A stretch of DNA of 41,617 nucleotides from Alloyangia mangrovi. GTDB taxonomy: Bacteria; Pseudomonadota; Alphaproteobacteria; Rhodobacterales; Rhodobacteraceae. Positions 12,267 through 41,617 of this stretch are shown here, in pieces. The notes beneath the pieces are model-generated. The model worked only from the letters and a program-made list of their open reading frames with translations. It made no database searches and had not been told where the DNA came from. Position 1 is the first letter of the stretch, and each line of letters opens with the position of its first letter. The stretch spans positions 1 through 41,617 of the forward strand of contig NZ_NTHN02000050.1 in assembly GCF_002300555.2 (NCBI RefSeq), read 5' to 3'. Both the position numbers and the translations under genes were made by a program.

Positions 12267-12274
12267 CCGGAATA

Positions 12275-14012: not shown

Positions 14013-14063
14013 GCGCCATCGGACCGACCGGCGGGCCAGCGGCAGCCTTGCAGGGTCAAGCTC

Positions 14064-20231: not shown

Positions 20232-20236
20232 TCCCC

Positions 20237-21476: not shown

Positions 21477-24400
21477 TCACTCATCTATGATGTCGAAATC
21501 ATCTTTTTCGGATGAAGGCTTGCTGCGCCTTTGTGGCTTCGGCGCACCTGCCCTCTTCTTTCCTAGAGCGTAGTCCGCCATGGAGGGAGACGGATGGCCG
21601 GGAAACCCTTCCTCGAAGCCCTGCACCATCTCCTTGTAGCTGAGGCCCAATGCAGACATCTTGCAAAGCTCGCGCCCATCGGTCCCGTCCCTGAGCACGA
21701 GGCCGCCACCCTTGGGGGCCACTTCAAGACCCCGTTCTTTGAAGCTGTCGATGAATTCGCCCCAAGACCGGCTTTCGTTGTAGATGCGCTGCGCAAGCGC
21801 AGCGAGAGCATCCGCATCATCCGGCGTGAGGGCTTTCGCAAGCTGCCCGCCCCGGATCTCCGTGCAGCCTGCCGGATTGGCCCGAGAGACGACACTCTCG
21901 ACGGCTGTGTCGGGCAACGTTGCGGCAGAAGGTACTTGTCCCGGAGGGGCAAAAACCAGCTCGGGAAGGACGGTCTCCCAAGCATCTCGACGCGCGTAGT
22001 GCGCGTATTGCTCGTCACCATCCGACTTGCGCCACTGGACCACAGCTCCGACCGCACCCGAAAGCAGGATCTGCCCCGTCGGATGCTCCCATGACTTCGA
22101 CATGCGTCCTACTAGGCGGCCCTGCCGGTCCAGCAACTCCCAGTTGGAGGCTCGGTGGTCCAGGTGCAACGGGTCACCCACCCGGCATTCCCGGATTGCA
22201 CGGTGAACCTCGTGTCGATCTCCCTGGCGACCGGCATATGACAGGTCGGAATGCTTGAGGTTTGGCAGATGGTAGACCCTCGAAGGTAGTCCTCCAGCCG
22301 GGAACTGGGGCACGACCTGTCTCTCAACGACGCAGGGGGTGCCGGGCTTCAGGAACGCATGCTCGCCCGAAGCCATAACGATCAGGCCCTTTTGGGCACG
22401 CGTCATCGCGACGTAGAAAAGTCGGCGCGGAGCATCACGGTCTTCGTTCTTCGATGCCCGGTCCCAACCGCCATCCAGAATAGCCACATGATCGAACTCA
22501 AGCCCCTTGGCCCGGTGGGCTGTCAGCAGGAGCAGCCCGCGTTGCTCGCCCCGTGTCTCACGGGACCATTCGGCCAGCCATTCGACGATATCGGGCACTG
22601 GCATGGTCTTTGTCTTCAGCTCTCTCGCCAGCTCGGCGATGCCTTCTGCCAACAGGTCGACCCACTTGTTACCTGGTTGCTCGTTGAGGAGCTCTATGAT
22701 GTCGGCAACGCCCAGCAGCTCGCCCTGTCGCCGACGCAGACTTGCAACAAGCGCCTGCGTCTCGCGCAGTCGCCAGATGTTTGGCAGGTCCTGATTGGCC
22801 ATTTCGACCTTGATACCCTGCTTTTCAGCATAGGTCCGGACAGCGCCAAGTCTCTTCCAGTCACGAGAGATGACGGCGGCACGGGCCCAGGACCACTCCG
22901 GATCCAGTTTCGACAGCCGCACCATCTCGTCGACGGCAGCGATCGCCTGTGGCACATCGCCGGAGGGGACATTCAGAAGCTGAACCCGGCCCTGTCCAAC
23001 CCCATCCACCTTTGCGAGGACGCCCCCCCTCAGGATCACGCCTGCGATCTGCGTTGATCCTGATCTCATGATCAACCTTCATCCGATCCGGCGCCGCCGA
23101 AATCACCGCATTGGCCGCCGCAATGATGTGGTTGGTGGAACGATAGTTCTCGACCAGGAACGCCGGCCGCGCCTTGTAGTCTTCTTCGAACTGCCGGATG
23201 AACCCGACGGAAGCGCCATTGAAGGCATAGATGTTCTGATCGTCGTCCCCGACGGCGAACAGGCTGAGCTTCAGGTCGGCATCCTCGAGAGATCTGCCCG
23301 CGACCGCCGAGATAAGCTGATACTCTTCCGGCCCGATGTCCTGATACTCGTCCACGAGGATCCAGCGATAGCCCTGGATCAGGGTCTCGCGCTGCGCTTC
23401 GGCTTCGGATTTCGACAGCCCTTCGCCTTCGAGCTGGCGCACCGCCTCCATTACGATGCCATCGAAATCTTCGGTCTCGGCCCGCTGGCCCACAAAACTG
23501 GCCCCCACAAGTTTCATCGCCAGCGCATGACAGGTAGAGACGGTGACACCAACGGCATCGTCGCCGACCAAGGAACGCAGCCGCACGCGGATTTCGGCCG
23601 CTGCGTGCCGGTTGTAGGCGAGAACCAGAATGCCTCGCGGGTCCTCGCGTTTCATACGCAGCAGATAGGCGATCCGATGGACAAGCACCCGCGTCTTGCC
23701 TGACCCCGGGCCCGCCAGGACCAGAACATTCGTCCGGTCCCGGTCATCCGTCACGATATCCTGCTGGACCTTGTTGCCCAGCTTCTCGACGATAGCCTCC
23801 CAAGAGGCGCTGGTGGTCTGACGTCGGACCTCGCGGCCCATGCCCGGCATCCACCGTTTCATGAACTGCTCCTTGTTGAGCAGGAAATAGTCCTCTGACA
23901 GACGTTCTGCATCGCGCTTGGACCGGAGACCGGTTTCGGCATAGGTCGCCATGACATGGGTCTGGAGTGTCTGCTCGCCGTAGTGGTCTTCCAGCGGCGC
24001 GAAATGCGCCTGGGTGAACTGCCCCCCTGCCGGATCGAGATAGACCGTCATGGCAGAGCGGAACACCGTAAGTCCCTTGCCGAGCGTCACCACACCCTGT
24101 TCATGCAGCCACATGAGCGCCCGCTCCATGAGCTTGGTCATGTCACCAATGCCACTGGTCTTCAGGATGGCATCCTGTTTCAGCTGTGCCAGCAGGTCGC
24201 CGACTGTCGTCTCGACCTGGAGATCCTTGCCCCGAACCCCCTTGTCGAGCCGGCCTGTCAGATAGGTCAGGAGCAGCTCGGCCGCTTGCCACCGCAAGTT
24301 TGCCGTTGCCCGAACTGTTTTCCAGGGCCGCACCAGAGTGACCATCAGCGTATTGCGACTGACCCTCCGCAGAGAGATATTCCCGCGACCGCCGTCTTGG

Positions 24401-27046
24401 CTTCGGCCATCTTGGGCAATCCCCCGCACCAGCCTATCGACCGCATCGGGCCTGACATCCGGATGGCCCTGGTCGCGCAAGCGCTGACAGGTTTCAGAAA
24501 GGTTCAAAGGAACCGGGGTTCGGTCATCTATGTCCGGCGCCAGCTCCTGCATCAGTGCGATAAGATTGCCCTCCAGCGCCGAAGACTGAGCCAGTCTCTG
24601 TGCCGAGGAACTGGCAACACCAACGTGGACAAAAACAGTAATCGCAACGTCGTTGCACGCGATGCCCAGCGTTTCCAGCGTCGACATGGCCTTTGGTAGC
24701 GCACCGGGCGATATCCCCGCCACACCGCAAAGCTCATCGGTCGACACGCCTTCGTCAGCCGGGGCCGAGACCAGATGCGCCACGATGGCCAGAAGTTGGT
24801 TGCGATGCGCTAGCGTCAGGTCTGCCCCGGCCAACCGCTGCTTCGCCTCATCCACGGACCGCACCCGCAGGGAGGACGGGAACACCTGAACCCGGTTCTC
24901 TTCCCGCGATACAAGATGCGCTTCCTCCAGCCAGGACACAGCAGTCTTGACGCGGGTGTCGTCCGTGGCGCTGTCGCGCTCGAACTCCTGGTCTTTCTCG
25001 GACCGGACGATCTCACCAGAAGTTGCAACGACCTTGCCGGTCTTTTTTCGTCCGCTCGTCGATCCGACGCAGCGCCTTGAGGATTGCCCCGATTTCATGC
25101 CGGGCGAGGCGCGAACTGGCCGTCAGCCGGAATTGCCGTTCCACATCATCAGCCGCAAACAACAGGACGCAATGGGCGTCCTCCCGGTCCCGTCCGGCGC
25201 GCCCGGCCTCCTGAAGGTAGTTCTCCAAAGACCCTGGGATATCGGCGTGGACGACCAAGCGGATGTCGGGCTTGTCGATCCCCATCCCGAAGGCATTGGT
25301 CGCGGCGATCACGCGCAGCTCGCCCACCCGGAACTGTTCCTGCACGACCTGCTTGTCGTCCGCGCTCATCCCGGCATGGAAATGCGCCGCATCCACACCC
25401 TGAGACTTCAGGAACTCGGCCACCCGCTCGGTTTCCTTGCGCGAGGAACAATAAACCACCGCCCCAGAGCGCCCCTCGGCGGGAAGCAGTGCGTCGAGGA
25501 CGTTCATCACGTCCGACAATTTGGATGCCTTGTTCGTCGGCCGCACTTCAAACGCCAGGTTTGTCCGCGAGGCGCCCCCGTCAAGCGGCAACAGCTCGAC
25601 TCCGGCCTTGGACTGGAAGTGTTCGATGATATCCGCAACAACCTCGGGCTTTGCGGTCGCGGTGAGGCAGAGCACAGGCGCGGGTGGTTGATCCTCCGAG
25701 AACTCCCTGATGAAGCGGCCAAGGTAGCGATAATCCGGCCGGAAATCATGCCCCCACTTCGACACGCAGTGCGCCTCGTCAATCGCCCAAAGCCCCACTT
25801 CGCGTTGCGCCAGCACGCTACGGATCGAGGTGCTGCGAAGCTGCTCAGGAGAGATGATGAGGATCCCGGCGTCGCCCATCCGGACCTTGTCGAGCGCATC
25901 CTGACGTTCCGGCATGGACATCATGCCATTGATCGTGACCGAGCAGGAGATCCCGGCACGCTCCATCCCCTGAACCTGATCCGCCATCAAAGCGACCAGG
26001 GGAGAAATCACCACCGTCAGCGCACCGATCTTGTCGAACCGCGACAGCGCCGGCACCTGGTAGCACAGCGACTTGCCCGTCCCTGTCGGCAGGATCCCCA
26101 GCAGGCTGTTGCCGGACATGGCCTCATCGACGATGCGTTCCTGCAGCGGGCGTCCCTCCGGGTCGACCGGCTTGGCGCGGAAGCTGGGGAACCCGAACCA
26201 CCTTTCCAAGGCGCGCACCGGGTCGTTCTGCTCGGAGCACCAGTTGCAGGCCGGATCCTTGCAGGAGGTGTCCCGCAGATGCCTGACAATCAGGGAGGCC
26301 TCGCGGAACTGCGCCCTCACCCAGGGAGGCATGACGGAGTCGCCGCCTGCCACCGTAATCCACGAGAGGGCATAGGCCATCGGCCAACCGTTCTGAGGGC
26401 TGCTGAGGCGTCGCAACGTCTGTTCTACACGCAACCCGCACGCTCGCCCGTCAAGCAACCGCGTGATCGCGGCCGCAGCCTCGTCATAGCTTGGACAACA
26501 CTTGCCGCGCAGGTAGGAGAACACGGCATCAAAGCCGCCGGCGCGTTCCATGCGCGTGGTCAGATAATGGTAGGCAGCCAGCTCGTCGGGCGCGACATCA
26601 GCCAATTTGGCAAAAGCATCCAGCTGATTGGCGAGCACCTCGAAAACAAGGCGCGCGTCCAGTTCGGGATCGTTTACATGCCCGGTGGCAAGGCGCCCGT
26701 CATGATAGTGCTTCACAAGGTGGTGGTATGGGTTCCGCGGGAAGGCCAGCGGGTTCAGCCACAGGGTGTCGATTGGCGCCTGTATGATCTGGCCAAGTCG
26801 GGGCCGTTTCGCGATCAGATGTTCGAGGTCGTGCTTCAGGAAGTTATGGCCAATGGGATGCGCTACATCACCGACCTGCGCTTCGAGCTGATCGAGGAAC
26901 TCTTCGGAGATCCCTCCCATTGACTTCAGCACCGGCCGTTCATCACCGCGCACGGCCGCTATTCCAAAGATCTTTGCCCTGGAAGGATCGACCTCAAGAT
27001 CGATCGACAGGCACCGGGACAAAAGTTGGTTGTGACGCATTTCCAT
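21477..27046 (-). CDS. DEDD exonuclease-RecQ-UvrD helicase fusion, frame broken at two homopolymers
   Basis: In the raw sequence this is three overlapping frames, 25013-27046, 22861-25098 and 21477-23075. Removing one base from the T6 run at 25043-25048 and one from the C7 run at 23023-23029 joins them into one protein of about 1855 residues. The junctions then read RIDERTKKTGKVVATSGEI and RDPEGGVLAKVDG. Order of domains: DEDD-type 3'-5' exonuclease (D16-x-E18, H72-D73, D126/D130); RecQ helicase with TGTGKS at 321-326, DEAH at 423-426 and an EAGRAGRD motif VI; a winged-helix-rich linker; and a UvrD/Rep SF1A helicase (AGPGSGKT near 1115, VDEYQDIG near 1233, LTAHRAKGLEFDHV near 1510). A nucleolytic, two-motor machine of this kind suggests processing of branched or invading DNA. 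If the shifts are genuine the gene is inactivated. Confidence 0.85.
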
Positions 27047-27165
27047 AGATTTATGAGTAACGATGAGAAAGCGCCGAACAAAGCCCGTTCATTTCGTGGT
27101 GGGGCCCGAACGCAATGACGTGCCTGATGCGACGGGCAGTGGCGCGACCGCCCGATCGCTCTTCC

Positions 27166-30100
27166 TCACTCACTGGCAATAGATCGCCATCCAATGCACT
27201 CCGAAAGGTATGAACGCGCATCCGCTGACAATCTGGCAATCCCCGCGTACCGCGCCAGATCGAGAACGGAATCCTCGCTCCTGCTCAGTTCAGCCGCATG
27301 GCGGTCATAAAGCTCCGCGATCTCCGTGCGGGAAATATCCCGGATAGACCGATCCAGTCCCGACCGGAAGCCGACCCTGTCGGCTTTCGTTCCTACCGCC
27401 CAAAGGAAATCGACACCATTCTCGGGATGCAGCTCAACCTGGCCAAGCGCCCTGGAGACCTGCTCGGAGATCCGCCTCCCCGTCCGTTGCCAGCCATGCA
27501 TTCCGGAGACCCGCTTGCCCAGCAAGGCTATCGGCATGGGCCCTTCGCGCTCGACCACGTCCGCAATCAGGCGCTCAAGGACGGGAATGTAGTCCGCATC
27601 GTAGAACCTTTCGGGATCGGGGCTGGCTTCACTCGAACCAGTTTCTCCCACCTCCGGCCTGGCAGCTGACGGCGCTGCACGGGCAAACTGTGCCTCCTGC
27701 CGGACAGGCGCTGACGGTGCGATGTCTCCTTCGCCGACCTCCATGATCGGCAGATCGACCTCAGCGACCGCTGCTTCCTCGGCCTCATGTGAGACCTCGA
27801 TCTCATCGGCATCTTCCGCGAGCATGGCGTCGCGTGCCGCGTCTTCTTCGGCCCGCTTGGCGCGATCGGCCTCGAGGTGCTCCGTCAGCGCGGTGTGGAT
27901 GCGTTCGACCACGGCCGCAGGATTGCGGAACCAGTCGGTCGACCAGATCCGGAAGATCGTCCAACCAAGGTTTTCCAGCACCGCCTGTCGCACCTTGTCC
28001 CGGTCCCGCGCCGTGGCAGAACCGTGATAGGTCGCCCCGTCACACTCGATCCCGGCAAGATAGACGCCCGCATGATCCGGATGCACGACGCCCAGGTCGA
28101 TGCGGAAGCCCGAGACGCCGATCTGCGGACGCAGCTCCCATCCCTTGGCCTCGATGGCCGCCTTGATCGCGGCCTCGAAGACATTCTCGACCGGCCCGAG
28201 CGAGCCGTCATCTTGCGCCGGGAGCGCGACAGGACCACGTGCCGCAAAATCGAGGAAGCCCTTCAGGTGCTTCACCCCGATGGCCTTGGTGCGCGTCAGG
28301 TCGATCTGATCGGCCCGGATCGAAGCAAATACATGCAGCTCCGCCCGAGCGCGCGTCACCGCCACGTTCAGGCGCTTCTCGCCGCCGTCTCCGTTCAGAG
28401 CGCCGAAGGCCATCGAAAGCTTGCCTGCATGGTCAGGGCCGAAGGTAATCGAGAACAGCATCACGTCCCGCTCATCGCCCTGGATGTTTTCCAGGTTCTT
28501 GACGATGACCGGCTCCTCCCGCGCATCCTCGAAGAACCATTCCAGATCCGGGTTCTTCCGCCGCTCCTCGTCCAGAAGGTCGAGGATCAGACCCTGCTGC
28601 TCGGCGTTGAAGGTGATGACACCAAGTGTCAGCCGCCCCTCCTCCGGCCAAGTCAGCCATTCATTCATGCGGCGCACCGTCATGCGCACGATGGCGCGGG
28701 CTTCGGCCTCGTTGGTCCTGCCCTGACCCCGCGCATAGACGCCATCGACCTGGTGCAGCCTCACCGCTTCCGACGCCGTCGCCGGAGACGGGAAGGTCAC
28801 GAGGCGGCCGCCGTAGTAATGCCAGTTGGAGAAGGCGATGAGCGCCTCGTCCCGGCTGCGATAGTGCCAATCGAGCTGCTGCGTCGGGATGCCTGCCGCG
28901 GCGACCTCGTCCAGGATGGACGCCAGATCCCGCTCTGCTTCAGGCAGCTCGTCCTCACCGGCGTCGCTGCGCCCGAAGAAGTTCGTCGGGGGAAGCTGCT
29001 TTGGGTCGCCGACGATGATCGCCTGCTTGCCCCTCGCGATCGCACCGATCGCGTCCCAGGTGGTGATCTGCGACGCCTCGTCGAAGATCACCACGTCGAA
29101 AGCCGCCTGCCCCGCAGGGAGATACTGCGCCACCGAAAGTGGGGACATCAGCACGCAGGGGGCCAGCTTGGTGAAGGCGTCGGGCATTTCCGAGATCAGC
29201 GTGCGGATCGGCATGCTGGGCCGTTGCAGCCCAAGCTGATGCCGCAGCGTGCCAAGTTCAGACCGACGCGCAACAGCATCCTGGGCTGGCAAGCCATGCT
29301 GGATGCGGGACAGGACCTGCCCCGCCGCCATGTCCGTTGCGCGGTCGTCCAATTCCCGGAAGCGCTTGATCGCGTCCTCGTGCGACCAGTGGGAGAACCC
29401 TCGCAATTCAGGCTGCGCATCCATGGCCTGTGGCAACCACCAGGCCGCATAGGCCGAGGTGAAGGCGGCATCGACATCGCCCGCGATCCCGCCTTCTTCG
29501 ACGGCATGGACAAGGGCCTCAAGCCCTGCCCCGCGGGCTTGTGTGCGGACTTCGACCCACCGGGTCCAATCCTGCAGGTGCTCCTTGTTGTCCTGAATGG
29601 CCTGCAAGGCTGCCAGCAGCTCGGACAGCGCCATCCCCTCGGGTGAGGCATGCGCCGTCTGCGCGAAAGCCCCGGCATGCTCCTGCCAGCTTTCATGTTT
29701 GCGCTGGAAGAGCGTGATCGCGTTGCGCAGGTCACCACCGCTCCGCTGGGCAAGGCTCTGGCGGGCCAGATCCCAACGGGCCGGATCTGCGACCGTGGGC
29801 GCGATCTCGGCGAGTACCGTCTTCATCGCCCGCGCCTGGTCCATCCAGTCAGCCAGGCGCGCCGGATCCGTTTCCACGCCCTTGACCACCGGACAACCGG
29901 TGAGCGGGCTTGCCTCGACCTCGGCTCTGGCGCGCTTGGCGTCCGCCAGCGCGACGATATCGAATTGGGGATCGGCCTTTCCGCCCTCCGCATAGGTCTG
30001 CATAAGCTTGCGCACCGAGGATTTGGCAAAGACCGAGAACGGCCACATCTTCGTCTGTGCAAGTCGCCAGTTGGCATCGAGCTGATCCAGCGGAAGGCTT

Positions 30101-33015
30101 TCCAGCCGCGCCATTGGATAGCTGGCAGAGGTTCGACCGGCTGCGGTGGTGTAGGCAGCGAGCCTGTCCGTCAGCATCTCTGCCTGCGCCTTCATCTCGA
30201 CGACATCCCGCGTCAGCGACCAGCTTACATCCTCGCCCGTCTCAGGGATCGACGACAGGAGCAGCAGCGGCGCGACTTCGGACGCCTCGCCAGCGCCTGC
30301 CCAGGTCAGCCCGGCATGGCGGGCAAGCGCCTCGGCGGCCTCTGCCAGCTCACGGGTGGCCGTGCCCAGCTTCGCGCCTCGTTCCAGAAGTTCCGCCTGC
30401 CAGCCAAAGGACCACTCCTCCGCTTGCACCAGCGGCAGCGGCTTGCGGCCCGCGATGATCTCCTGGCACCGGCCAAGGGCCTCGGCCAGCTTCCTCAGAT
30501 GCATGTAGCTTTCCGCATCATGCGCATCCTTGTTCGCGAAGCCCAGGCTGAACGGCTGTTCCTGACCGGCGGCCTTGCCGATCGCCTGGAAGACGCTGAA
30601 GCCTTGCGTCCCCTTCTTGTGCAGCGCCGTGACATAGGTGTTCAGCTGTTCGCGGGTGACCGTCAGGTCATCCGTCACCTTGATCCAGTCGGCGTGCGAC
30701 GCGCTGGCCGCCCGCGCCCAGCTGCGGCCCAGCTGAGACAACACCGATTTCCGGTCGGCCTTGTTGGAATGCAGCTCGAGCACCGCATCGCCAAGCCCAT
30801 GCGACGCAAGCCGCCGCTGCACCACGTCCAGCGCCGCCGATTTCTCGGCCACGAAGAGGACGGTCTTCTGCATGGCGAGGCATTGCGAGATGATATTGGC
30901 GATGGTTTGGCTCTTGCCGGTGCCCGGCGGCCCGATCAGGACGAAGTCATGCCCCTCCTGCGCGGCCAGAACGGCGGCAAGTTGGGAAGAGTCTGCGGGC
31001 AGCGGCGTGAACAGATCGCGCGGCGCGAGCCTGCGGTCCACATCGACCGCGACCGGCAGTCCCGGCGTCCCTTCGGCCAGGAAAGGCTCGGTCGGGTTGT
31101 CCACTAGATGCTTCACCAGCGCGCTTTCGCGCAGGCTGTCGGTCCGCTCTACCAAGTCCTTCCACATCAGGAACTTTGCAAAGGAGAAGGTCGAAAGCGC
31201 AAGCTCCTCTACCACCTCGAAGCCGGCAACATCGCGCACCTTACGGCGCATGATCTCGAAGATGCGCGGGAGGTCGAAACCGCTCTCATCCCGCGGCAGA
31301 TCACCCTCCAGCTCGGGCACCTTCAGGTCGAAGTCCCGCTTGAGAAACTCCAGCAGCGTGGTGTTGAAGCGCACGTCGTCCTCGTGATGCTCGATCACGA
31401 ACTCCGACTGCGCAGACTTGCGGGAGATCTTCACCGGCACCAGCAGCAGCGGCGCGCGGTAGCTGCGCGTGTCCCCTTCGGACTTCTTCCAGCGCAGGAA
31501 GCCGGCGGCCAGGAACAGGGTGTTCGTGCCGCCTTCCTGCATGTCGCTTTTGGCGCGCCGGTGCAGCTCGAGCAGCCGGCGCTCGCTTTCCTTGCGGGTC
31601 AGCGGGACCGCGATCTGGCCCCTCGCGAAGGCATCCTGCGCGACCTCTTCAAGGAGCTTGGGCTCTTCCTTCGCCAGAAGGTCGCGCGTGCCAACCGGAT
31701 CCTCGTCCTTGAGCGCCAGCGCGCGGAACTTCTTGCCGTCGGCCAGCTGATCTTCCAGTGCCGAGACATCAGGGCACAGGAAGGGGAGCGTCTGCTTGCT
31801 GTCCTTGAAGTTCAGCAGCCGGTTGCGCAGCGACAGGTCCAGAAGCTTGCGTTGCCAGCGAGAGATCCGGTCCGCTGGCGTCGAGGCCTCATCCTCGATC
31901 AGTTCGCCGGGCAGCAGGCCCAGATCCAGCGGGCGCGGCAGGGCTGCCGGACTTGCAGCGACATCTTCCGCCTCGGCCTCCAACTCGGAGCGATGGCTGG
32001 CGAGCGGGCGAATCCGGGCCGCCCGGGCACGCCGGATGTCGACTGCCATGACAAAGCTGTGCTCATTGCGCTCGGAGGTCAGTTCGCGCGCCGTATCAAC
32101 CGCCTGCTCGAACCCGACGCTGGGTTTCTTCGTCAGCAAGGTGGTCTCCATGACCACGAACTCGCGCGCATCGATGGCCTTCCGGACCGTCATCACGTCG
32201 GGCTCGCTGATGGTCCCGAAATCCCGCTCCGTCAGCCAGACCCCGGTCCAGGCATGCCCTTCGGAGAAGAGCACGACGGGGTTGAGACCAGCGGCTTCGA
32301 AGCAGCCGGCCAGCAGCAGGGCACTATCCAGACAGGTAGCCAGTCCTTCAGACTTGATGCGACCGGGGTCACGCACCTTCTGGCCGCGCAACTCGAAACT
32401 TGCCGGAGGCACCGCGTAGGTCAGCCCCATGCCGGTCGCGGCCGACCAGATCGCCCCGGCCAGCATCCATGCACGGGACGGGTCTCGGGACTGGTAGCCA
32501 TCCATGGCACCGCTCTGTCCGGCCCCCTCCAGTAGTCGGCTGGCCTCCTTGAGGACACCAGCGACAACCGAGTCATTGGGAGAGACGAAGGCCGCAAGCA
32601 GATGCGCCATGTCGCCGACACCACCCCATTCGTCTCGGGCCAGCATCTCGATCGGGCGCTGCTCGTGCAGCAGCTCCGTCTCGCGGTGCTTCACAACGAA
32701 CTGCAGCTCTCCCCACTCTGCCTCGTTAAGGCCGCCCAGGATCACCGTATCCAAGGGCGTTTCCAGGTCGCGCAGCTCTTGTCGTTGCCCCGGCGCCAGC
32801 CGATCCACCGTCCAGTTTTTCTGGCGGATCAGACCGGGACTGCACGTCAGTTCGAGAGTGATATTCTCCAGCGGCTCATCTGAAAGGTTCTCCAACACGA
32901 CATTTTTCAGAACCGAGACACCGTTCTGGGACGATGCAAAGTTTACTTTCTGAGCGACGGACAGCACTAGAACGAGCTGGTCACGCGCCTCTTCCCCGAC
33001 CGTATCAAACGACAT
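27166..33015 (-). CDS. Giant DUF4011/SF1 helicase with Vsr-like nuclease domain (1949 aa)
   Basis: Domains in order: an N-terminal beta-rich region (1-130); a transglutaminase-like fold (about 220-262, with C228, D230 and GHAWTGVWL); a DUF4011 domain from about 384 (WQRKLLDLSLRNRLLNF); and an SF1 helicase with GPPGTGKS at 695-702, VVIFDEASQI near 1310, NIQGDERDV near 1515 and LNVAVTRARAELHVF near 1548. These are followed by a Vsr/DUF559-like nuclease near 1600-1690 (FRIDLGVV, GIECDG) and a C-terminal DUF3320-like region. This architecture resembles the single-protein Hhe-type defence proteins (DUF4011, helicase, Vsr), as I recall. I start it at ATG 33015; an in-frame ATG at 33054 is possible. 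The frame is intact. The gene lies between the GIY-YIG fusion and the RecQ-UvrD fusion on the same strand, with 119 bases to the latter. Confidence 0.93.
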   Translation of the reverse strand: MSFDTVGEEARDQLVLVLSVAQKVNFASSQNGVSVLKNVVLENLSDEPLENITLELTCSPGLIRQKNWTVDRLAPGQRQELRDLETPLDTVILGGLNEAEWGELQFVVKHRETELLHEQRPIEMLARDEWGGVGDMAHLLAAFVSPNDSVVAGVLKEASRLLEGAGQSGAMDGYQSRDPSRAWMLAGAIWSAATGMGLTYAVPPASFELRGQKVRDPGRIKSEGLATCLDSALLLAGCFEAAGLNPVVLFSEGHAWTGVWLTERDFGTISEPDVMTVRKAIDAREFVVMETTLLTKKPSVGFEQAVDTARELTSERNEHSFVMAVDIRRARAARIRPLASHRSELEAEAEDVAASPAALPRPLDLGLLPGELIEDEASTPADRISRWQRKLLDLSLRNRLLNFKDSKQTLPFLCPDVSALEDQLADGKKFRALALKDEDPVGTRDLLAKEEPKLLEEVAQDAFARGQIAVPLTRKESERRLLELHRRAKSDMQEGGTNTLFLAAGFLRWKKSEGDTRSYRAPLLLVPVKISRKSAQSEFVIEHHEDDVRFNTTLLEFLKRDFDLKVPELEGDLPRDESGFDLPRIFEIMRRKVRDVAGFEVVEELALSTFSFAKFLMWKDLVERTDSLRESALVKHLVDNPTEPFLAEGTPGLPVAVDVDRRLAPRDLFTPLPADSSQLAAVLAAQEGHDFVLIGPPGTGKSQTIANIISQCLAMQKTVLFVAEKSAALDVVQRRLASHGLGDAVLELHSNKADRKSVLSQLGRSWARAASASHADWIKVTDDLTVTREQLNTYVTALHKKGTQGFSVFQAIGKAAGQEQPFSLGFANKDAHDAESYMHLRKLAEALGRCQEIIAGRKPLPLVQAEEWSFGWQAELLERGAKLGTATRELAEAAEALARHAGLTWAGAGEASEVAPLLLLSSIPETGEDVSWSLTRDVVEMKAQAEMLTDRLAAYTTAAGRTSASYPMARLESLPLDQLDANWRLAQTKMWPFSVFAKSSVRKLMQTYAEGGKADPQFDIVALADAKRARAEVEASPLTGCPVVKGVETDPARLADWMDQARAMKTVLAEIAPTVADPARWDLARQSLAQRSGGDLRNAITLFQRKHESWQEHAGAFAQTAHASPEGMALSELLAALQAIQDNKEHLQDWTRWVEVRTQARGAGLEALVHAVEEGGIAGDVDAAFTSAYAAWWLPQAMDAQPELRGFSHWSHEDAIKRFRELDDRATDMAAGQVLSRIQHGLPAQDAVARRSELGTLRHQLGLQRPSMPIRTLISEMPDAFTKLAPCVLMSPLSVAQYLPAGQAAFDVVIFDEASQITTWDAIGAIARGKQAIIVGDPKQLPPTNFFGRSDAGEDELPEAERDLASILDEVAAAGIPTQQLDWHYRSRDEALIAFSNWHYYGGRLVTFPSPATASEAVRLHQVDGVYARGQGRTNEAEARAIVRMTVRRMNEWLTWPEEGRLTLGVITFNAEQQGLILDLLDEERRKNPDLEWFFEDAREEPVIVKNLENIQGDERDVMLFSITFGPDHAGKLSMAFGALNGDGGEKRLNVAVTRARAELHVFASIRADQIDLTRTKAIGVKHLKGFLDFAARGPVALPAQDDGSLGPVENVFEAAIKAAIEAKGWELRPQIGVSGFRIDLGVVHPDHAGVYLAGIECDGATYHGSATARDRDKVRQAVLENLGWTIFRIWSTDWFRNPAAVVERIHTALTEHLEADRAKRAEEDAARDAMLAEDADEIEVSHEAEEAAVAEVDLPIMEVGEGDIAPSAPVRQEAQFARAAPSAARPEVGETGSSEASPDPERFYDADYIPVLERLIADVVEREGPMPIALLGKRVSGMHGWQRTGRRISEQVSRALGQVELHPENGVDFLWAVGTKADRVGFRSGLDRSIRDISRTEIAELYDRHAAELSRSEDSVLDLARYAGIARLSADARSYLSECIGWRSIASE

Positions 33016-33293
33016 TCTTACGCTACCTGGCCCTTTAATCCCCGAGCCAGTCACTCATACGAGAATGTGTCTGTCAATTGCACGGTCGTTTCGCCGAAGA
33101 ATTGAGAAACGTGCCTATGCTCCCGCGATCTGACGAAGTCGCAGAAGGAAATTTCAGACGCTTGGCCTCCGGAAACTCAGTATTTCAGGTCAGAACCAAC
33201 GGAATTTGGAGCTTATCTTATCCCTCATACCCAATAGAAGAACCTGGAAGACGCCTACGCAAACGGCTGCCGCGCCCGGACGCTCTGCTCACT

Positions 33294-34859
33294 TCACGCC
33301 GATGCTCGCACAAGTGTCACCTGATAGCAGAAGGGTGCGGTTTCGCTAATCTCCACGATATCTCCAGCACGCGCACCGTTGTCTGCAAAGAAGCTGCGCA
33401 CCCAGGATCGGTCACGGAAAATCTTCTTGGTGAGGTCGATATCGGTGACGGCCGGAAGCGCTCCGCCCCAATTAATGGTCAGGGTCCGCGCGGCTGCACT
33501 TGCCCTATTGCCCCCGCCAAGGGTTTCCTTCGGGAAAGAGCTGATGCAATCGCGCAAGTAGAAGTGACTGTTATTGAGGTTGCCTTGGGTCAGCACGCTC
33601 CGCCCAACGAGACCGCGGATTGGCGTCTCGGCCTCGGGCGTCTGGTCTGCCAGAGGTGATGACAGCTCGGATCGGACGTTGGTGGCCGCACGCGGCGAGT
33701 TCCCGGCATCTTCCTCGTCGATGACATCGAAATCCTCCACCACAGCCCGAGCGCCGCCTTCTGCCCTCAGCACGACTTCCGCCGCGGCGCGCGCGTCTTC
33801 GCCCGAATCGTGGTGCTCGAACCTCAGACCAAGGTGCTGCTTGAGCGAGGCCAGGCCATGCCCGCCGTTTCCCTTCAGCTCGGGCCATGCCGCGCGAGCG
33901 ACGGTCACGCTGTTCTGCCAATTCCAGCCCGGCTCCTGCCGGCCAAGCGTGGCACTGGCGGCGCGGATCGCACTGCGGTCGAACCCGGAGTGCTGATAGA
34001 CCGGGCGACCCGCGAGCCCAGCCTCCAACAGGTCAAGGACTTCCCCGATCGTCGGCGCCCCGACCACCATGTCACGCGTAATGCCGTGCAATCCGCTGAA
34101 GACCCAGCGATCCGTTCCAGGGTCGACCAGGGTAACCCAGGTCTCGATGCGGTCATCAGGCAGAACGCAGGCAATCCCGACCTGGCAAATGCTTGCGCGA
34201 TCATGGTTTGCGGTCTCCACATCGAGGGCGAAGAACCCGAAGGGGCCATCGGGCAGCTTCGGCAGCGCGCCGCTCGTGGAAGCGACATCGCGGGGGCCAG
34301 CTGCCTGAACATCCTCACGGGACCGCGCAAGCTGCCGTCCCAGGGCCGCGCGCTCGAAGGGGCTGAGGTCCAGCTCCTCGATCAGGGCATCGACAAGCGC
34401 GGTAGGCTCCTCGTAGGGGTCCATTCCGCGGCGGTTCCAAGCGATCATATCCTGGGGCGCAAGCGCGATGACCTGGGCCTCGATGCCGGCGATATCCGCA
34501 CGATCCGGTAGTGGCACCCAGACGGCTGCGCAATGGCGCGCGATGAAGACGTTGCGTAGGGCCTTCGCGATGTCCCCATCCGCCTTTGTGGCCGGGTCAT
34601 TGCGCAGACGCCACATCCGCCCGGTGTTGTACATGCGCGAGAAGTAGTGGCTGGTGCTTTCGGACCCGGTTCGGTGGCGCTGATGGATGCGCTTGCGGAA
34701 GGTCTCGGAGGCCGAAGAGGTCGAACCGATGTAGCGGAAGGCTCCGGTGTGATCGAAGAGCCCGTAGATGCCACGCGCATCGTCTGGCGCTTCCGAGGTC
34801 GGTCGCGGGGTCGCCGCACGCAGCATTGCCAGGATCTCGGCTGCGGTAGGGGTGGTCAC
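33294..34859 (-). CDS. GIY-YIG nuclease-DnaQ-like exonuclease fusion with C-terminal putative DNA-binding domain
   Basis: The 521-residue protein joins three parts. Residues 28-145 are a GIY-YIG endonuclease domain (GIY at 30-32, YIG at 43-45, R55, E127, terminal WN). Residues 205-365 are a DEDDh 3'-5' exonuclease (ALDVETAN with D213 and E215, D294, H350, D355). Residues 430-517 are a compact domain (HFYLRDC, FPKETLGGGN, FRDRSWVRSFF, AGDIVEI) that I associate by pattern with B3/EcoRII-N-like DNA-binding barrels, without certainty. I start at GTG 34859, preceded by AAGGAG; the frame is open to 34997, but that part lies before the ribosome-binding site. It is the first gene of the minus-strand arm, divergent from the phosphoesterase-TniQ operon. 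Confidence 0.88.
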   Translation of the reverse strand: MTTPTAAEILAMLRAATPRPTSEAPDDARGIYGLFDHTGAFRYIGSTSSASETFRKRIHQRHRTGSESTSHYFSRMYNTGRMWRLRNDPATKADGDIAKALRNVFIARHCAAVWVPLPDRADIAGIEAQVIALAPQDMIAWNRRGMDPYEEPTALVDALIEELDLSPFERAALGRQLARSREDVQAAGPRDVASTSGALPKLPDGPFGFFALDVETANHDRASICQVGIACVLPDDRIETWVTLVDPGTDRWVFSGLHGITRDMVVGAPTIGEVLDLLEAGLAGRPVYQHSGFDRSAIRAASATLGRQEPGWNWQNSVTVARAAWPELKGNGGHGLASLKQHLGLRFEHHDSGEDARAAAEVVLRAEGGARAVVEDFDVIDEEDAGNSPRAATNVRSELSSPLADQTPEAETPIRGLVGRSVLTQGNLNNSHFYLRDCISSFPKETLGGGNRASAAARTLTINWGGALPAVTDIDLTKKIFRDRSWVRSFFADNGARAGDIVEISETAPFCYQVTLVRASA

Positions 34860-35324
34860 GTCGTGTCTCACTCCTTCTCGATACACTGCCAGGCGATACC
34901 GCTGACAATGCCCCAGATACCCTCCTCGTTCGGGCGCCGCCAGCGCGGGATCGCGCATTGCATTCGGCCGTGACGCAGGAAAACGCGATTCGGCCAATGC
35001 CGTCAGATTTGGGGTAAATTGACACCTCAGATCCGTGTTTCGCGACCACGGCTGCGCCGGTTTTTGCGAAAAACTCCGAACTGGAGACTTCAGCGCGTTT
35101 GCGAATAATATTCTTGAATGCCGATAATGGCCCGCAGCTCATGGGCTCCAGTAGCACCGCGACCTTTGCGAAAAAAAATGAGAGCGCTGCGTGGGGCTTG
35201 CACACATGACAAGGCTGCGACAGACCTAGTAGAAATGCCGATGGATCAGTCTCTTAGACAGCCCGTCAGGCGTCAATGCCCACTCTCTCTTGCGGGGGGA
35301 ATGTAGGTCGTCCAGGAGCCCAAG
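34860..35324. other. Shared intergenic region of the divergent nuclease/TniQ locus
   Basis: This 465-base stretch has no coding potential but is relatively A/T-rich and structured. It holds three TTTGCGAA repeats (35063, 35098, 35165), an A8 run at 35171-35178, and a symmetric GTTTTT-GCG-AAAAAC element at 35060-35074. It should contain the promoters of both arms and probably the binding sites of a common regulator, though no regulator gene is adjacent. Confidence 0.55.
35063..35172. repeat. Three direct TTTGCGAA repeats, candidate regulatory sites
   Basis: Exact copies of TTTGCGAA occur at 35063-35070, 35098-35105 and 35165-35172, with start-to-start spacing of 35 and 67 bases. All are followed by A/T-rich sequence. 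The first is embedded in the dyad GTTTTT-GCG-AAAAAC. An 8-base word three times in 110 bp between divergent operons is unlikely by chance in DNA of this GC content. Confidence 0.45.
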
Positions 35325-36470
35325 TTGCAGAGCCCCAACATTATCGAAATTCCGGACAACGGCGGAGCGGTCGCAGTAATGGCAGATCTCCATTTCAAGT
35401 CATATTTGCGGCATGGAAGTAACCCGCTCGAGCTTCATGGTCTGCAAGATCGGCTGCTCCGTGAAAACGTCGATGCCTTGATCGTCTCGGGTGACCTGTC
35501 CGACACCTTCGGCCCGTCACTGCAGGACGCGCTCGCATATCTGAGCCGCTATGTTCCCGCTGGTCGCATCCACCTCCTCCCCGGAAACCATGACTACTAT
35601 TCTGGGCGGCTGGACGACGAGAACCGGCTGCGTGACCTGGTTCACGCAAGCGGGAGTTGGTTCGCGCAGAAGACCGAACTCCGCCATCGTAGCGACCGGT
35701 ATCTCTGCGCCACGCTCTGGACCGACTTCGAGCTACTGGGGGATCAGGAGGCTGCCAAGAACTACGCACGCCGGTTCATGCGCGACTTCGACATGATCTC
35801 CACCGAAGCGTCTGGTCATGAGTGGCTTGATCCGGACGAGGTGCTGCCGCGCCGCATTGTCCCGGTTACACCTGAGGATATAATCGCCGTACATCGGGAT
35901 CACCGCGCTTGGCTGGAAGAAAGACTGGCGACCCCACATTTCGCTGGCAATGGCAGGACCTTCGTTATCACGCACCACGGCCCGCACCCGTCTGCCGCGG
36001 GTCCAATCGATGGCCTCACGCCAGCCTTCCACTCGGACTTGACAGAAGTCCTCGAGCGGAGCGACATCGAAACCTGGTTCTTCGGTCATTCACACCGACG
36101 ACTGTCCTCCGTGGTTGCAGGAACACGTATTCAGAATGTTTCAATCGGCTACCCCGACGAAGATCATGGCGCCGGCGAGGATGACCTGGCGGAGGTCTGC
36201 TTCATTGCAGCGGCGCTGGCCACGCAGCCCTCGAGTGAGCTTGGGGACCTGCCGGCTGATAGACAGGCACTCGAGCGAGACTTCGGGTACGCGCTTCGGT
36301 GCAGCGAAACCGGCATTCCTGTCCTGGTGGACAAGCTCACCCCCTCAACGGGCACCTTTCTGCGCCACGCGTTGAGGGGGTGCGCCTGCCCTATCGTGCC
36401 GGAAGGAGACGCGTACTACGCAACCGATGTCATCGTCGCGCTCAGCCAGAGACGGCCAGGTTCTGAATGA
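35325..36470 (+). CDS. Calcineurin-like metallophosphoesterase
   Basis: The 381-residue protein shows all five metallophosphoesterase motifs: ADLH (D21, H23), GDLSD (D57), GNHDYY (N88, H89), THHGPH and GHSHRR. The two-metal site is therefore complete. Such enzymes act as nucleases or cyclic- or di-nucleotide phosphodiesterases; the branch here cannot be assigned. The start is TTG 35325, with AGGAG at 35314-35318 six bases upstream. Its stop overlaps the next gene as ATGA. It heads the plus-strand operon that ends with an orphan tniQ and an unknown gene, so its nuclease-type activity probably belongs to the same process. Confidence 0.9.
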   Translation: MQSPNIIEIPDNGGAVAVMADLHFKSYLRHGSNPLELHGLQDRLLRENVDALIVSGDLSDTFGPSLQDALAYLSRYVPAGRIHLLPGNHDYYSGRLDDENRLRDLVHASGSWFAQKTELRHRSDRYLCATLWTDFELLGDQEAAKNYARRFMRDFDMISTEASGHEWLDPDEVLPRRIVPVTPEDIIAVHRDHRAWLEERLATPHFAGNGRTFVITHHGPHPSAAGPIDGLTPAFHSDLTEVLERSDIETWFFGHSHRRLSSVVAGTRIQNVSIGYPDEDHGAGEDDLAEVCFIAAALATQPSSELGDLPADRQALERDFGYALRCSETGIPVLVDKLTPSTGTFLRHALRGCACPIVPEGDAYYATDVIVALSQRRPGSE

Positions 36471-36733
36471 TGCCGTTTGATGCGATCATTTCGATCTCGG
36501 GGATGCTGGTCTGCCTGGTTGGCCTTGTTCATGTCGTCATCGCCTACCGGCGCACGACGCGCTCGGCTGAACCTGATCCGCAGCGCGTAAGACGCTTCGT
36601 CGAAAGCGCCCCGCCGATCCCCGGCCACCTGCTTTACGCTCATCAGGATCGATGCCCCACAGCGAGGCCCTCTCGCGCGCAAAAGGCCGAGCCTGCTGAG
36701 GAAGACTCAAAAGACCACGAGGCGCCGCGTTGA
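36467..36733 (+). CDS. Small single-span membrane protein (88 aa)
   Basis: I do not recognise a family. Residues 4-28 (ending VHVVIAYRR) form one hydrophobic helix followed by positive residues, so the N-terminus is probably outside and the 60-residue charged, Pro/Arg/Glu-rich tail is cytoplasmic. The start overlaps the phosphoesterase stop (ATGA) and the stop overlaps the TTG start of tniQ (TTGA), so it is translationally coupled on both sides. A one-span protein in a defence-type operon could act as an anchor or small effector; this is inference only. Confidence 0.7.
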   Translation: MMPFDAIISISGMLVCLVGLVHVVIAYRRTTRSAEPDPQRVRRFVESAPPIPGHLLYAHQDRCPTARPSRAQKAEPAEEDSKDHEAPR

Positions 36734-38604
36734 CCACACCACTCCCCCTCGCGCCCGACCTCCAGGATCGGGAAACTGCCTTTTCCTTCGCATCTCGCCT
36801 CGCCACGATGAACGGCGTGGATACTGCGGGCTTTTGCACCGACATGGGGCTGTCCTTCAGCAAGGTGATCGACGGCAAGCCCGAAGCCTTGGCCCGTCTG
36901 GCAGATCTCAGCGCGGCTGACGTCGAGGACCTGCGGCGCTGGTCGCCCCTCTACCTGGGCAACCGAGAGCACGAGTTCCGCGGCAATCGCTTTCATGCCA
37001 AGGCCATCAAGGAAAGCACCGTCCGGGGCTGCCCTGCCTGTCTGCGGGAGGATGCGGAAGCCGCCCCAGACAGTTTTGAAGGCGACATGTACATCAGGGG
37101 CCACTGGCTCTTCCGGCCTATTACGCTCTGCCTGAAACATCACCATCCTCTCGTTCCGTTATGGGCCGAGGCCAATGTCAGTCGGCGCTACGACGCTGCC
37201 GCTCGCTTGGCCGAGATCGCGCCCGGCGTGTGGGCCGGAGAATTGGACAAGGAGCCGCGCGCGCCCAACCCGTTCGACGTATGGATCGAGGCACGCCTTG
37301 CGGGCACTCCCACGGAGAGCTGGCTGGATCAGTTCGACCTCTACGCCGCAGCGCATTTCTGCGAGTTGCTCGGGCGCGCCATCTGGGCGGTCAGGTTCCC
37401 GAAGTGGAAGAAGTTCGGCCCGGAACGTGCCTGGATGTCCTTCGAGATGGGCTTCCGCTTCGCGACCGAAGGGGAAGCGACGGTCCGTGATACCCTGATG
37501 CAGCTGCAGGAGACCATTGGCGAGGCGACCGACGGCCCCAAGAAGAAGTACGGCGCGCTGTACGACAGGCTCGCGTTCGACCTCCTGGGCGAGGCCTACG
37601 CCCCCTTCCGGGAGCTTCTCCGCGACCACATCGCAAGCACCTGGCCACTAGGTCCGGGCGACGATCTCATGGGAGAGCCTGTGCTGGAGCGAAAGGTCCA
37701 CTCGGTCCGGACCGCCGCGCGCGAACTTGGCATGGATCCCCGGCGCCTGCGCAAGCTGCTGGTCGATGTCGATCTCGTCCGGCCGGCCGAGACTGGCCGC
37801 GATGACCAGTGGGAGCTGTTCGATGCCAAGGCAGCGCAGCCACATCTCGACCGCATCAACACCCTGGTGTCCGCAAAGGACTTCCAGGAAGCATTGAGCA
37901 TGTCCCGCTCGCAGTTCGAACTTTTGCGAAAAGAGGGCCATTTCCCGCCCGCGATCGACGGTGGAGATCACAAGCCACTCTGGGACGTCCGTGCTGCGCA
38001 CCTGCATCTGGAAAGCCTCTTGACCGGTGCCGAGCCAATCTACGTGACCATGCACGGCTGGGATGACATCCCGACAACCGCGCAAAGCCTTAAGGTCTCC
38101 CCCGGCACAGTCCTGAAGCTGCTCGCGGGTGGCAGGGTTCAGCGGATCGGTCGGCACACCAACCGTGATGGCTACGCCAGCATCGTGGTCACGAAAGGCG
38201 AAATCGAACGCCTTCTGGAGCGCCCCGAGGCGCCGGGTCTCAGTATCGACGTCTTCGCCCGCCAGTGCGGTCTGACCCGCTCCGCCGCCATGCGGCTGGT
38301 GCGTGAGGGACATGTCCCGTCCACGGAAGGCCGACACCCCAAGACCAAGGCACGGCAGCGCTTCTTGGCGCCAGGCGACCTCGCCGCTTTCCATGAGCGG
38401 TTCGTGACCCTGCGCGGTCTTGCCGTAGAGCTTGGCATGCCCTGGCAAGCACTCCGGCCCAAGCTGGCGGCTGCGGGGATCGAGCCCTTCAGCCCGGACG
38501 GGCAGGACTACGGCGCGGTTTTCGAAAGACGGGCTGCCGACCCGCTCTTACTTGCCGGCGAAGCACGGAAAAGCAAATCATCAAACAAGAAAGATGAGAC
38601 ATGA
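36730..38604 (+). CDS. tniQ: TniQ family protein, orphan, long C-terminal HTH region
   Basis: The 624-residue protein begins with a TniQ domain (about 1-150). Its signature includes FSFASRLATMNG and a zinc site formed by CPAC (C101, C104) and C134-x-x-H137, with the usual RGHWLFRP between. The rest contains repeated HTH-like segments (for example TAARELGMDPRRLRKLL near 330 and FARQCGLTRSAAMRLV near 510). TniQ proteins are target-selecting partners of TniB/TnsC ATPases. Here no transposase or ATPase gene is adjacent; the only tniA and tniB in the window are 32 kb away. The TTG start at 36730 overlaps the preceding stop as TTGA, and the end overlaps the next gene as ATGA. It may act in trans with the distant module, or have been co-opted as a DNA-targeting subunit of this locus. 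Confidence 0.88.
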   Translation: MTTPLPLAPDLQDRETAFSFASRLATMNGVDTAGFCTDMGLSFSKVIDGKPEALARLADLSAADVEDLRRWSPLYLGNREHEFRGNRFHAKAIKESTVRGCPACLREDAEAAPDSFEGDMYIRGHWLFRPITLCLKHHHPLVPLWAEANVSRRYDAAARLAEIAPGVWAGELDKEPRAPNPFDVWIEARLAGTPTESWLDQFDLYAAAHFCELLGRAIWAVRFPKWKKFGPERAWMSFEMGFRFATEGEATVRDTLMQLQETIGEATDGPKKKYGALYDRLAFDLLGEAYAPFRELLRDHIASTWPLGPGDDLMGEPVLERKVHSVRTAARELGMDPRRLRKLLVDVDLVRPAETGRDDQWELFDAKAAQPHLDRINTLVSAKDFQEALSMSRSQFELLRKEGHFPPAIDGGDHKPLWDVRAAHLHLESLLTGAEPIYVTMHGWDDIPTTAQSLKVSPGTVLKLLAGGRVQRIGRHTNRDGYASIVVTKGEIERLLERPEAPGLSIDVFARQCGLTRSAAMRLVREGHVPSTEGRHPKTKARQRFLAPGDLAAFHERFVTLRGLAVELGMPWQALRPKLAAAGIEPFSPDGQDYGAVFERRAADPLLLAGEARKSKSSNKKDET

Positions 38605-38990
38605 AGTACATGATTGTCAGGGGGATCGGCGACTTGGAAGCCCAAGCTGCTCACCAGAAGCGCTGTGAGGAGAAGCAAGTCCCGTTCATCTACGCCAGGG
38701 CGGAACGAACCCGATGCACCCTCTATTGTGAGTGCATTGATTTGGTCTCGCCGGCGATAGACAAGCTCGTAAATCATGCCGAGGAGATCCAGGTCTTCTT
38801 TCAGCAGCTGGATAGTCGCTACCCTAGACCCGCGAAAATTGACCCGGGATACCCAGCGTTTTACTTCTTTAACAAGTTGTTGGTCTCAGACGTGGACGAA
38901 GTTGCGACTGAAACCTACGACTTCCTGACAGAAATCTTGACCCGAACACCCGACCCACAACGCCCACTGCAATTTGGACAGAGTGGGTGA
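38601..38990 (+). CDS. Hypothetical protein (129 aa), downstream partner of tniQ
   Basis: I do not recognise this protein. It starts at ATG 38601 inside the tniQ stop (ATGA), which strongly supports that it is a real, coupled gene. The product is soluble, with three conserved-looking Cys (CTLYCEC region near residue 40) and an aromatic-rich middle (YPAFYFFNKLL). Its first residues (MKYMIVRGIGDLEAQAAHQK) look like a Rossmann-type strand and helix. It ends the four-gene operon. No function can be proposed beyond association with the phosphoesterase and TniQ. Confidence 0.75.
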   Translation: MKYMIVRGIGDLEAQAAHQKRCEEKQVPFIYARAERTRCTLYCECIDLVSPAIDKLVNHAEEIQVFFQQLDSRYPRPAKIDPGYPAFYFFNKLLVSDVDEVATETYDFLTEILTRTPDPQRPLQFGQSG

Positions 38991-39455: not shown

Positions 39456-39470
39456 ATGGAAGAGACGCAC

Positions 39471-39845
39471 ATGGACTATTCACCTGACGACTGGGTGATC
39501 CTGAAGGTTTCGTTTGCGACGCGGGACAGAACTTTCACTCAACTCAGAGTGTTGGGCGGCTGGCGCGGCGGGTATCTCAGTGGGGATGCATGGCGCATAA
39601 ACTCAGGCATTCAGGCCGTTCATGCGGATGACCTCGAATACCGCTTCGTTGGTCGATCAGGTTCCGTCTATCTATGCCGTCGCGGCGGATATCGCATGTC
39701 ACGCATCATGGCGTCTGGCCTGGAAGAGCTGAAGCGTCAACCGACCGTTGTCGATGCAGAGGTTCTGGAAGACCGGAATTGGTTTGAACCAGGGCTCCTT
39801 GAAGCACTTCTCTCAACGGCGGCTGACGATACAGCGGTGAAGTGA
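39471..39845 (+). CDS. Hypothetical protein (124 aa)
   Basis: I do not recognise it. I choose ATG 39471 because GGAAGAG lies six bases upstream; an in-frame ATG at 39456 is also possible. The product is soluble and beta-rich in its first half (DDWVILKVSF, TQLRVLGGWRGGYLSGDAWRINSGI), with a helical C-terminal part. The first half has an even pattern of strands that could be an SH3-like or tudor-like barrel. It overlaps the decayed end of kptA and may originally have been its operon partner. Confidence 0.6.
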   Translation: MDYSPDDWVILKVSFATRDRTFTQLRVLGGWRGGYLSGDAWRINSGIQAVHADDLEYRFVGRSGSVYLCRRGGYRMSRIMASGLEELKRQPTVVDAEVLEDRNWFEPGLLEALLSTAADDTAVK

Positions 39846-41536: not shown

Positions 41537-41617
41537 GGGATTCATCTCGTGAATCCAGCATCCTAGCCGGGCAGCATGAGCAGACCTCCGAAGCCGACCT
41601 ACAAGACCACCAACTGG
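41537..41617 (+). mobile_element. Left end of an IS5-family element, continues beyond the window
   Basis: The element starts after CTAG, a target typical of IS5-family (IS427-group) insertions, with the end sequence GGGATTCATCTCGTGAATCC. The inner part of this end is itself an inverted repeat (GGATTCA and TGAATCC). A transposase start follows at 41576. Confidence 0.65.
41576..41617 (+). CDS. IS5-family transposase, first 14 codons
   Basis: The visible residues MSRPPKPTYKTTNW match the N-terminus that I recognise from IS5-family transposases of alphaproteobacteria (MSRPPKPTYKTTNW followed by an S/P-A-Y-N segment). The reading frame runs off the window end. It is transcribed away from the IS3 remnant. 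Confidence 0.7.
   Translation, partial: MSRPPKPTYKTTNW

Follow-up and report, generated by a model that had tools for sequence, protein, structure and literature searches.

The divergent helicase and TniQ locus of Alloyangia mangrovi probably lies inside a Tn7-like transposon with a putative attachment site at nrdJ

Contig NZ_NTHN02000050.1 of Alloyangia mangrovi (Rhodobacterales), all 41,617 nucleotides of which constitute the window analysed here, carries two divergent arms of genes between positions 21477 and 38990. One arm encodes helicases and nucleases, and the other encodes a metallophosphoesterase (MPE), a one-span membrane protein (TM), a TniQ protein and a protein without family assignment. 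A preliminary description of this locus found no transposase and read the arms as TniQ recruited to a nucleolytic immune complex, or as two adjacent defence systems. The locus therefore raises the question of whether its TniQ serves immunity or transposition. We conclude, with a probability of about 0.93, that the locus is the interior of a large Rhodobacterales Tn7-like transposon, with tnsABC near the left end and the MPE-TM-TniQ operon toward the right end, and that the helicase arm is cargo of this transposon.

The claim that a transposase is lacking proved wrong, as tnsC, tnsB and tnsA (1030-4909, − strand) and a transposon end at 657 are present in the same window:

657-690, + strand: transposon left end (AGTCAGAGAAAGCAGATGAATGCGCAAAATCA...), with more TGCGCA-bearing repeats to ~800, at a sharp homology boundary
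1030-1932, − strand: tnsC-like AAA+ ATPase, 300 aa (Pfam AAA_22, weak TniB)
1929-4199 (ORF to 4316), − strand: tnsB-like transposase with rve and Mu-transpos_C domains (Pfam; DDE residues aligned)
4169-4909, − strand: tnsA-like endonuclease, 246 aa (46% identical to its L006 counterpart; aligned with the annotated TnsA of L073)

The TnsC, TnsB and TnsA proteins are 51, 45 and 46% identical, respectively, to the products of three consecutive genes on a Paracoccus plasmid (locus L006), where the TnsC counterpart is annotated as an 'ATP-binding protein' and is encoded next to the Paracoccus transposase. The TniQ gene of that locus is divergent from its tnsABC genes, and the protein is 37% identical to the window TniQ. 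TnsB and TnsC are encoded in a single operon, and the D, D and E residues of TnsB and the Walker A motif of TnsC were present on inspection or alignment. The TnsA-like protein had no Pfam match of its own.

Homology to related elements ended within a few bases of 657, and the AGTCAG terminus at this boundary is common to genomes G255, G253, G250, G263, G249 and G259 and to Tritonibacter locus L102. The flanks outside the boundary are unrelated, except in G255, G250 and G263, where another such end follows in inverted orientation (stacked neighbours). These last three genomes, of the same genus, contain complete elements between inverted ends (39,648 bp in G255, 26,345 bp in G250 and 19,305 bp in G263). 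In all of them tnsABC and MPE-TM-TniQ have the divergent layout of the window, and the variable cargo that separates tnsA from MPE measures 6.5 to 21 kb. Repeated sites were found within the inverted ends and are putatively of the TnsB type. A search of the host genome for the terminal 25-mer, with up to 3 mismatches allowed, returned two occurrences, both exact: window position 657 and G000:C100:2868-2892. Elements bounded instead by the upstream regions of tnsA and MPE were ruled out by the discovery of these true ends. TniQ, which had been expected to occur without a transposase nearby, is thus accompanied by tnsABC on this contig and in three complete related elements.

All four genes ascribed to the TniQ arm in the preliminary description were located at 35325-38990 on the + strand. 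Each overlaps the next by 4 bp, so that the translational coupling proposed for them is plausible:

35325-36470, + strand: metallophosphoesterase (Pfam Metallophos, 53 bits)
36467-36733, + strand: one-span membrane protein, 88 aa (single hydrophobic span by eye; adjoins MPE in Thioclava too)
36730-38604, + strand: TniQ/TnsD-type target selector, 624 aa, with a C-terminal HTH (Pfam TniQ, 77.8 bits; HTH_17)
38601-38990, + strand: unknown protein, 129 aa, poorly conserved, with no family match in Pfam or NCBIfam and 34-35% matches in L012, L015 and L017

The right end of the host element lies on contig C100, 21 bp past the stop codon of a gene that we take from its sequence to be nrdJ, encoding B12-dependent ribonucleotide reductase. 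The identical 25-mer end was found 16 bp past the nrdJ stop codon in G250 and 19 bp past it in G042; in these three genomes the insertion is fixed and oriented beside a conserved gene. Direct contact with nrdJ was therefore seen on the end side in the host genome, G250 and G042, and on the TniQ side in G039, G097, G042 and G013, where TniQ genes lie 157-312 bp from nrdJ (the matches in G042 and G013 being partial). TniQ genes occupied 21 further places besides those in the host genome and G088. Among the 19 places examined, which left out the hits in G024 and G231, 4 were beside nrdJ, 11 were beside a tRNA gene (Arg-UCU, Arg-CCU, Gln or Met) and 4 were beside neither, these tallies resting on the loci fetched. 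A 100/100 branch in a tree of 30 TniQ proteins placed the tRNA-type proteins on one side and the clade of the window TniQ on the other; G042 (because of its length) and G013 were left out of this tree, and label counts were not used. Because transposon ends and TniQ genes adjoin nrdJ, the window TniQ is most likely a homing factor of the TnsD type. No solved structure matched it by sequence.

Our model is that TniQ would bind the 3′ end of nrdJ, and that nrdJ-bound TniQ would recruit TnsC. TnsAB would then insert the element in a fixed orientation ~16-21 bp past the nrdJ stop codon, leaving the gene unharmed. Cargo is carried in two slots, one between tnsA and MPE and the other between the operon and the right end. 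In the window, the first slot contains metabolic genes, the anti-phage protein ProA, an exonuclease-RecQ-UvrD gene with an interrupted frame and the gene for a GIY-YIG/DnaQ protein. The element may be active at present.

Known Tn7 and Tn7-like elements resemble this one in their TnsA, TnsB, TnsC and TniQ/TnsD proteins, in the repeated sites of their inverted ends, and in fixed, oriented insertion just past a stop codon. They also carry defence cargo, as surveyed in excerpts of Benler 2021 (PMC8649781), and the window element does likewise. TnsD/TniQ attachment sites named in an excerpt of a review (PMC11406308) are glmS, tRNA genes and parE, unlike the nrdJ site of the window-type element. In the open-licence literature searched, nrdJ was not found in print as a Tn7-like attachment site, nor was a TniQ operonic with a metallophosphoesterase and a one-span protein, and no paper on Tn7-like elements in Rhodobacterales was found. 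The layout also differs from that of known Tn7-like elements, in that cargo separates tnsABC from a divergently oriented tniQ, which is in an operon with the MPE and TM genes. Tn6022-type TniQ-TnsF elements are similar in having TniQ operonic with an extra unrelated protein, as described in part of Faure 2023 (PMC10293859). However, the partner there is tyrosine-recombinase-like and the TniQ short, whereas the window has an MPE, a membrane peptide and a long HTH-bearing TniQ. What is new is a putative nrdJ attachment site and an MPE and one-span protein operonic with TniQ, a smaller novelty than an immune complex. What looked like a TniQ immune complex is better read as a mobile element with clear boundaries, and the case shows that locating transposon ends can place a TniQ that seems to be an orphan. 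These results suggest nrdJ as a further Tn7-type attachment site, and a TniQ family found beside nrdJ or beside Arg, Gln and Met tRNA genes should be useful for studying how TnsD-type proteins choose DNA.

The arm opposite the operon contains the following genes:

25013-27046, 22861-25098 and 21477-23075 (three frames), − strand: DEDDh-RecQ-UvrD gene, cargo (Pfam, ORFs)
27166-33054, − strand: ProA, a DUF4011-helicase-Vsr-like-DUF3320 protein of 1962 aa, cargo (NCBIfam, PADLOC, Pfam)
33294-34850 (ORF to 34997), − strand: GIY-YIG-like and DnaQ-type exonuclease protein, cargo (Pfam RNase_T, plasmid matches)

The DUF4011-helicase-Vsr giant named in the preliminary description was borne out by Pfam, which gave a DUF4011-AAA-MTES_1575/Vsr-like-DUF3320 architecture. 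This protein scored 2104.7 bits against NCBIfam NF058533 (anti-phage protein ProA; equivalog cut-off 1500), in a match covering its residues 38-1941 and the entire model, and 1200 bits against PADLOC PDC-S37. On account of these scores it is the known defence protein ProA carried as cargo; the window copy would be expected to protect against phage, and the element would be a vehicle carrying ProA between bacteria. Neighbours at the other DUF4011 loci examined differ from those in the window. By description alone, the arrangement is like the edge of core defence hotspot 1 of P. aeruginosa, where a DUF4011 protein lies beside variable defence genes according to an excerpt of PMC10250203, although the DUF4011 gene there is a core chromosomal flank gene and that of the window is transposon cargo.

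The GIY-YIG/DnaQ fusion was likewise recovered, its RNase_T domain by Pfam and its GIY-YIG half, which had no Pfam match, through matches to plasmid proteins annotated as GIY-YIG. Its start is likely at ~34850, as a query begun there matches L017 from the first residue. The reported exonuclease-RecQ-UvrD fusion stands for the relatives, in which it is fused; in the window it is spread over three overlapping ORFs in three frames. RecQ and UvrD form a single open frame in L016 as far as the contig end, and five of eight other alphaproteobacterial relatives, G298 and G055 being among those with long open frames, have open frames of 1484-1845 aa, the remaining three having 459, 646 and 708 aa. Since one frame in relatives corresponds to three here, the window copy is either broken or affected by errors in the draft sequence. 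The UvrD part matched GajB models of PADLOC, but the neighbouring ORFs scanned with Pfam contained no AAA_15/AAA_21 (OLD-type) or Toprim domain, as Gabija would have.

Several observations weigh against the transposon interpretation. Only the left end is in the window; the right end was assembled into a separate contig, which leaves the host element unclosed. ATGTC lies directly beside the left end but 2 bp outside the right end, which gives no clean 5-bp duplication, and the right ends in G263 and G255 abut another Tn7-like element, with nrdJ not in direct contact. At the third position of the TnsA catalytic triad, which we take to be E-D-K, arginine aligns in place of lysine; the E and D align with those of the L073 TnsA. 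G253 has tnsABC but no MPE in its genome, and MPE-TM occurs in Thioclava also without a window-type TniQ. Finally, L017 aligns with the window across both arms in a single 13.2-kb alignment (93%), as expected of a unit inherited together.

The last observation bears on the idea of a single immune complex made up of all seven genes, with TniQ guiding the helicases and nucleases to DNA. The genes are adjacent and divergent with an intergenic region in common, and L017 retains RecQ, ProA and GIY-DnaQ plus MPE-TM-TniQ in order. However, the DUF4011 helicase was present at just 4 of the 13 MPE loci that could be judged (the window, L003, L016 and L017) and missing from L004, L005, L012, L013, L014 (2.9 kb of flank), L020, L049, L088 and L095; L015, L018 and L019 lacked sufficient flank for a decision, and L021 has both genes as fragments only. 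The seven genes thus do not stay together, as the preliminary description would have had it. Even where the helicase arm is represented it can be incomplete, as L003 has the DUF4011 gene only and L016 is without the GIY-DnaQ gene. The helicase DNA of L016 is 94% identical to that of the window and its TniQ DNA only 73%. In sampled genomes, DUF4011 relatives (E up to 1e-200) occurred in at least 9 of 248 of the family, and the DEDDh-RecQ protein (E up to 1e-110) in at least 9 of 385 of the class, the host included in each count. At 60 bits or more, a cut-off also applied in part of the comparison of MPE loci, neither MPE nor TniQ nor the respective other large gene was found in the stretches around 8 other DUF4011 and 8 other RecQ-UvrD loci, several of which are cut by contig ends; locus L144 gave a RecQ-type match of 25% identity only. 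Furthermore, tnsABC is present, and the TTTGCGAAAAA repeats between the arms stay with MPE alone. An immune complex is very improbable on this evidence, the arms occurring apart and TniQ accompanying tnsABC. The helicase arm is cargo, given that 4 of 13 MPE loci have at least its giant helicase and that genes of the arm are found separately elsewhere. The reading as two adjacent defence systems holds for this arm, which is defence-type cargo by virtue of ProA, whereas the TniQ arm is a module for homing of the transposon rather than an established second defence system.

Within the Tn7-like transposon, the place of MPE-TM can be explained in two ways. The pair may have a function in selecting the target or controlling transposition, as a partner of TniQ with a role like that of TnsE or TnsF. 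Alternatively, it may be cargo, a small module for defence or stress that became coupled to TniQ by an accident of insertion. Consistent with the former, all 8 members of the clade that includes the window TniQ have MPE immediately upstream (7 of them with a recognised TM), and MPE is found near three different TnsB lineages (the window type, L003 and L049). Moreover, all 7 of the 20 genus genomes with MPE are among the 8 with TnsB (Fisher p 1e-4, a value that ignores kinship of the genomes). In contrast, Thioclava L005 has MPE-TM with no Tns or TniQ query match within 12 kb, no MPE match was found near the tRNA-type TniQs fetched or in L006, and the L016 form has no recognisable TM. Thioclava loci in which MPE-TM (with a downstream gene, p39456, in L003 and L005) occurs without a window-type TniQ favour the cargo explanation, as do restriction or helicase genes alongside in L004 and L005 and a weak match to PADLOC PDC-S10 (21.7 bits); the 4-bp coupling to TniQ in the operons of Salipiger and Tritonibacter loci and the co-occurrence with TnsB argue against it. 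A defence or stress module has somewhat less than an even chance, and a role as TniQ partner is possible but doubtful. It would be a tentative extension of the latter to regard the element as a Tn7-like lineage with a new nrdJ site in which MPE and TM are a new TniQ accessory, controlling the time or place of transposition by a membrane-linked or nucleotide-signal route, with the repeat array as the switch. The MPE-membrane pair may in that event control transposition. We also considered whether the element is a dead remnant, with cargo frameshifts, a right end that is not closed and a contig ending in IS sequence. The RecQ-UvrD gene is indeed spread over three frames, and relatives show a split TnsB (G250) and one stop codon in MPE (G263). 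However, tnsA, tnsB, tnsC, MPE and TniQ are all open in the window and the ends are identical to those of other insertions, so that a dead remnant is rather unlikely.

The remaining features of the operon and its surroundings are as follows:

4960-5346, no strand assigned: conserved stretch before tnsA that contains a hairpin and a terminator-like sequence (genus matches, homology)
5967-20536, no strand assigned: metabolic and unknown cargo, including LysR, alpha/beta hydrolases, CMD, cupin, PLDc, AI-2E and M20 peptidase (Pfam)
35063, 35098 and 35165 (35063-35175), + strand: three TTTGCGAAAAA-type repeats with spacings of 35 and 67, starting 160-262 bp upstream of the MPE start
39456-39845, + strand: 129-aa protein p39456, downstream of the operon and kept in relatives
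41133-41561, − strand: IS3-type integrase-core fragment (Pfam) near the contig end, ahead of any right end

Eight MPE residues (D21, H23, D57, N88, H89, H217, H255 and H257) were invariant across 11 aligned sequences, the window included, and are presumably the metal-site residues expected of such enzymes. The predicted structure of MPE had a pLDDT of 35.7. Three TTTGCGAAAAA-like sites were reached in none of 2000 mononucleotide shuffles. Among 14 MPE loci, 6 have three sites and 11 have at least two at 66-67 bp; two loci have one site and L015 has none. The repeats of the region said to be shared by both arms are therefore real, but because they persist at loci without the helicase arm (L004, L005, L013, L088 and L095, for example) they belong to the MPE operon, and the array marks the MPE promoter region. 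These repeats were rejected as TnsB sites, as the element ends carry GCATATGnnTGCGCA-type repeats and the TTTGCGAAAAA array is at a constant distance from MPE whether cargo is present or not. The p39456 protein is matched over its full length in Salipiger and Tritonibacter loci (82-94%), in part in L015 (63%) and L014, and at 51-52% in Thioclava. It is retained after the MPE operon even without a window-type TniQ (Thioclava L003 and L005); in L003 the Thioclava MPE-TM module is beside another TnsABC lineage.

Upstream of tnsA, 4960-5085 was strongly matched in 8 of the 20 genomes of the genus, the host included, with homology reaching 5346 or further and part of the region kept in L006. A hairpin, CCCCAACTT and a second terminator-like hairpin were seen by eye in 4979-5085, a stretch kept in Salipiger, Tritonibacter L102 and Paracoccus L006 and, by eye, in Thioclava L003. 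It is a possible small RNA or leader; among the matches listed, Rfam gave only ones below the gathering score, and a known RNA was rejected. G255 has a second, 82% identical copy of the tnsA upstream region inside its element (L088 ~3806-4064, concatenated 23707-23965), perhaps a relic of a merged transposon. The third catalytic position of TnsA is R in the window and L006 and K in L003, L073 and L049, a difference that might affect how strands are cut and how the element transposes.

Some cargo slots of other elements contain plain metabolic genes, and 5 of 10 proteins from such slots and neighbouring regions matched PADLOC (PDC-S31, PDC-M48B, ATPase, CapP-like), the other 5 giving no match. 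No Cas family was detected by Pfam in the part of the window ORFs scanned, the element being partly off the contig, and no CRISPR array was among the 20 largest families shown by the repeat search of the window; Cas-associated PADLOC models gave generic matches only, from the helicase, DEDDh and TniQ parts. The MPE-TM pair and a TnsB/TniQ fragment on a Thioclava plasmid are a few kb away from Type I-E cas genes (L004 1-1427).

The G250, G263 and G255 elements, which are stacked, have no 5-bp target duplication. A second Tn7-like family with the apparent terminus TGTAGGACCC seems to stack with the window-type element (L097 and L095/L096 in G263, L089 in G255) and lies directly after nrdJ in G263. 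The same tnsABC lineage is found beside tRNA-type TniQs in G249 and Tritonibacter L102, where the elements look stacked; this is suggestive of target-selector swapping, which we do not claim. The host genome has another TniQ and a distant TnsB at L101 (G000:C93:30000-49900), probably a second Tn7-like element of another lineage. Window positions 1-54 were rejected as the native nrdJ flank; they form a repeated IS-like end with many copies in the genus, which may explain the contig break. In Paracoccus onchidii L021 (~9360-10488), DUF4011 and MPE remnants lie right before a right end, ~1 kb from a gene that we take to be uvrB-like.

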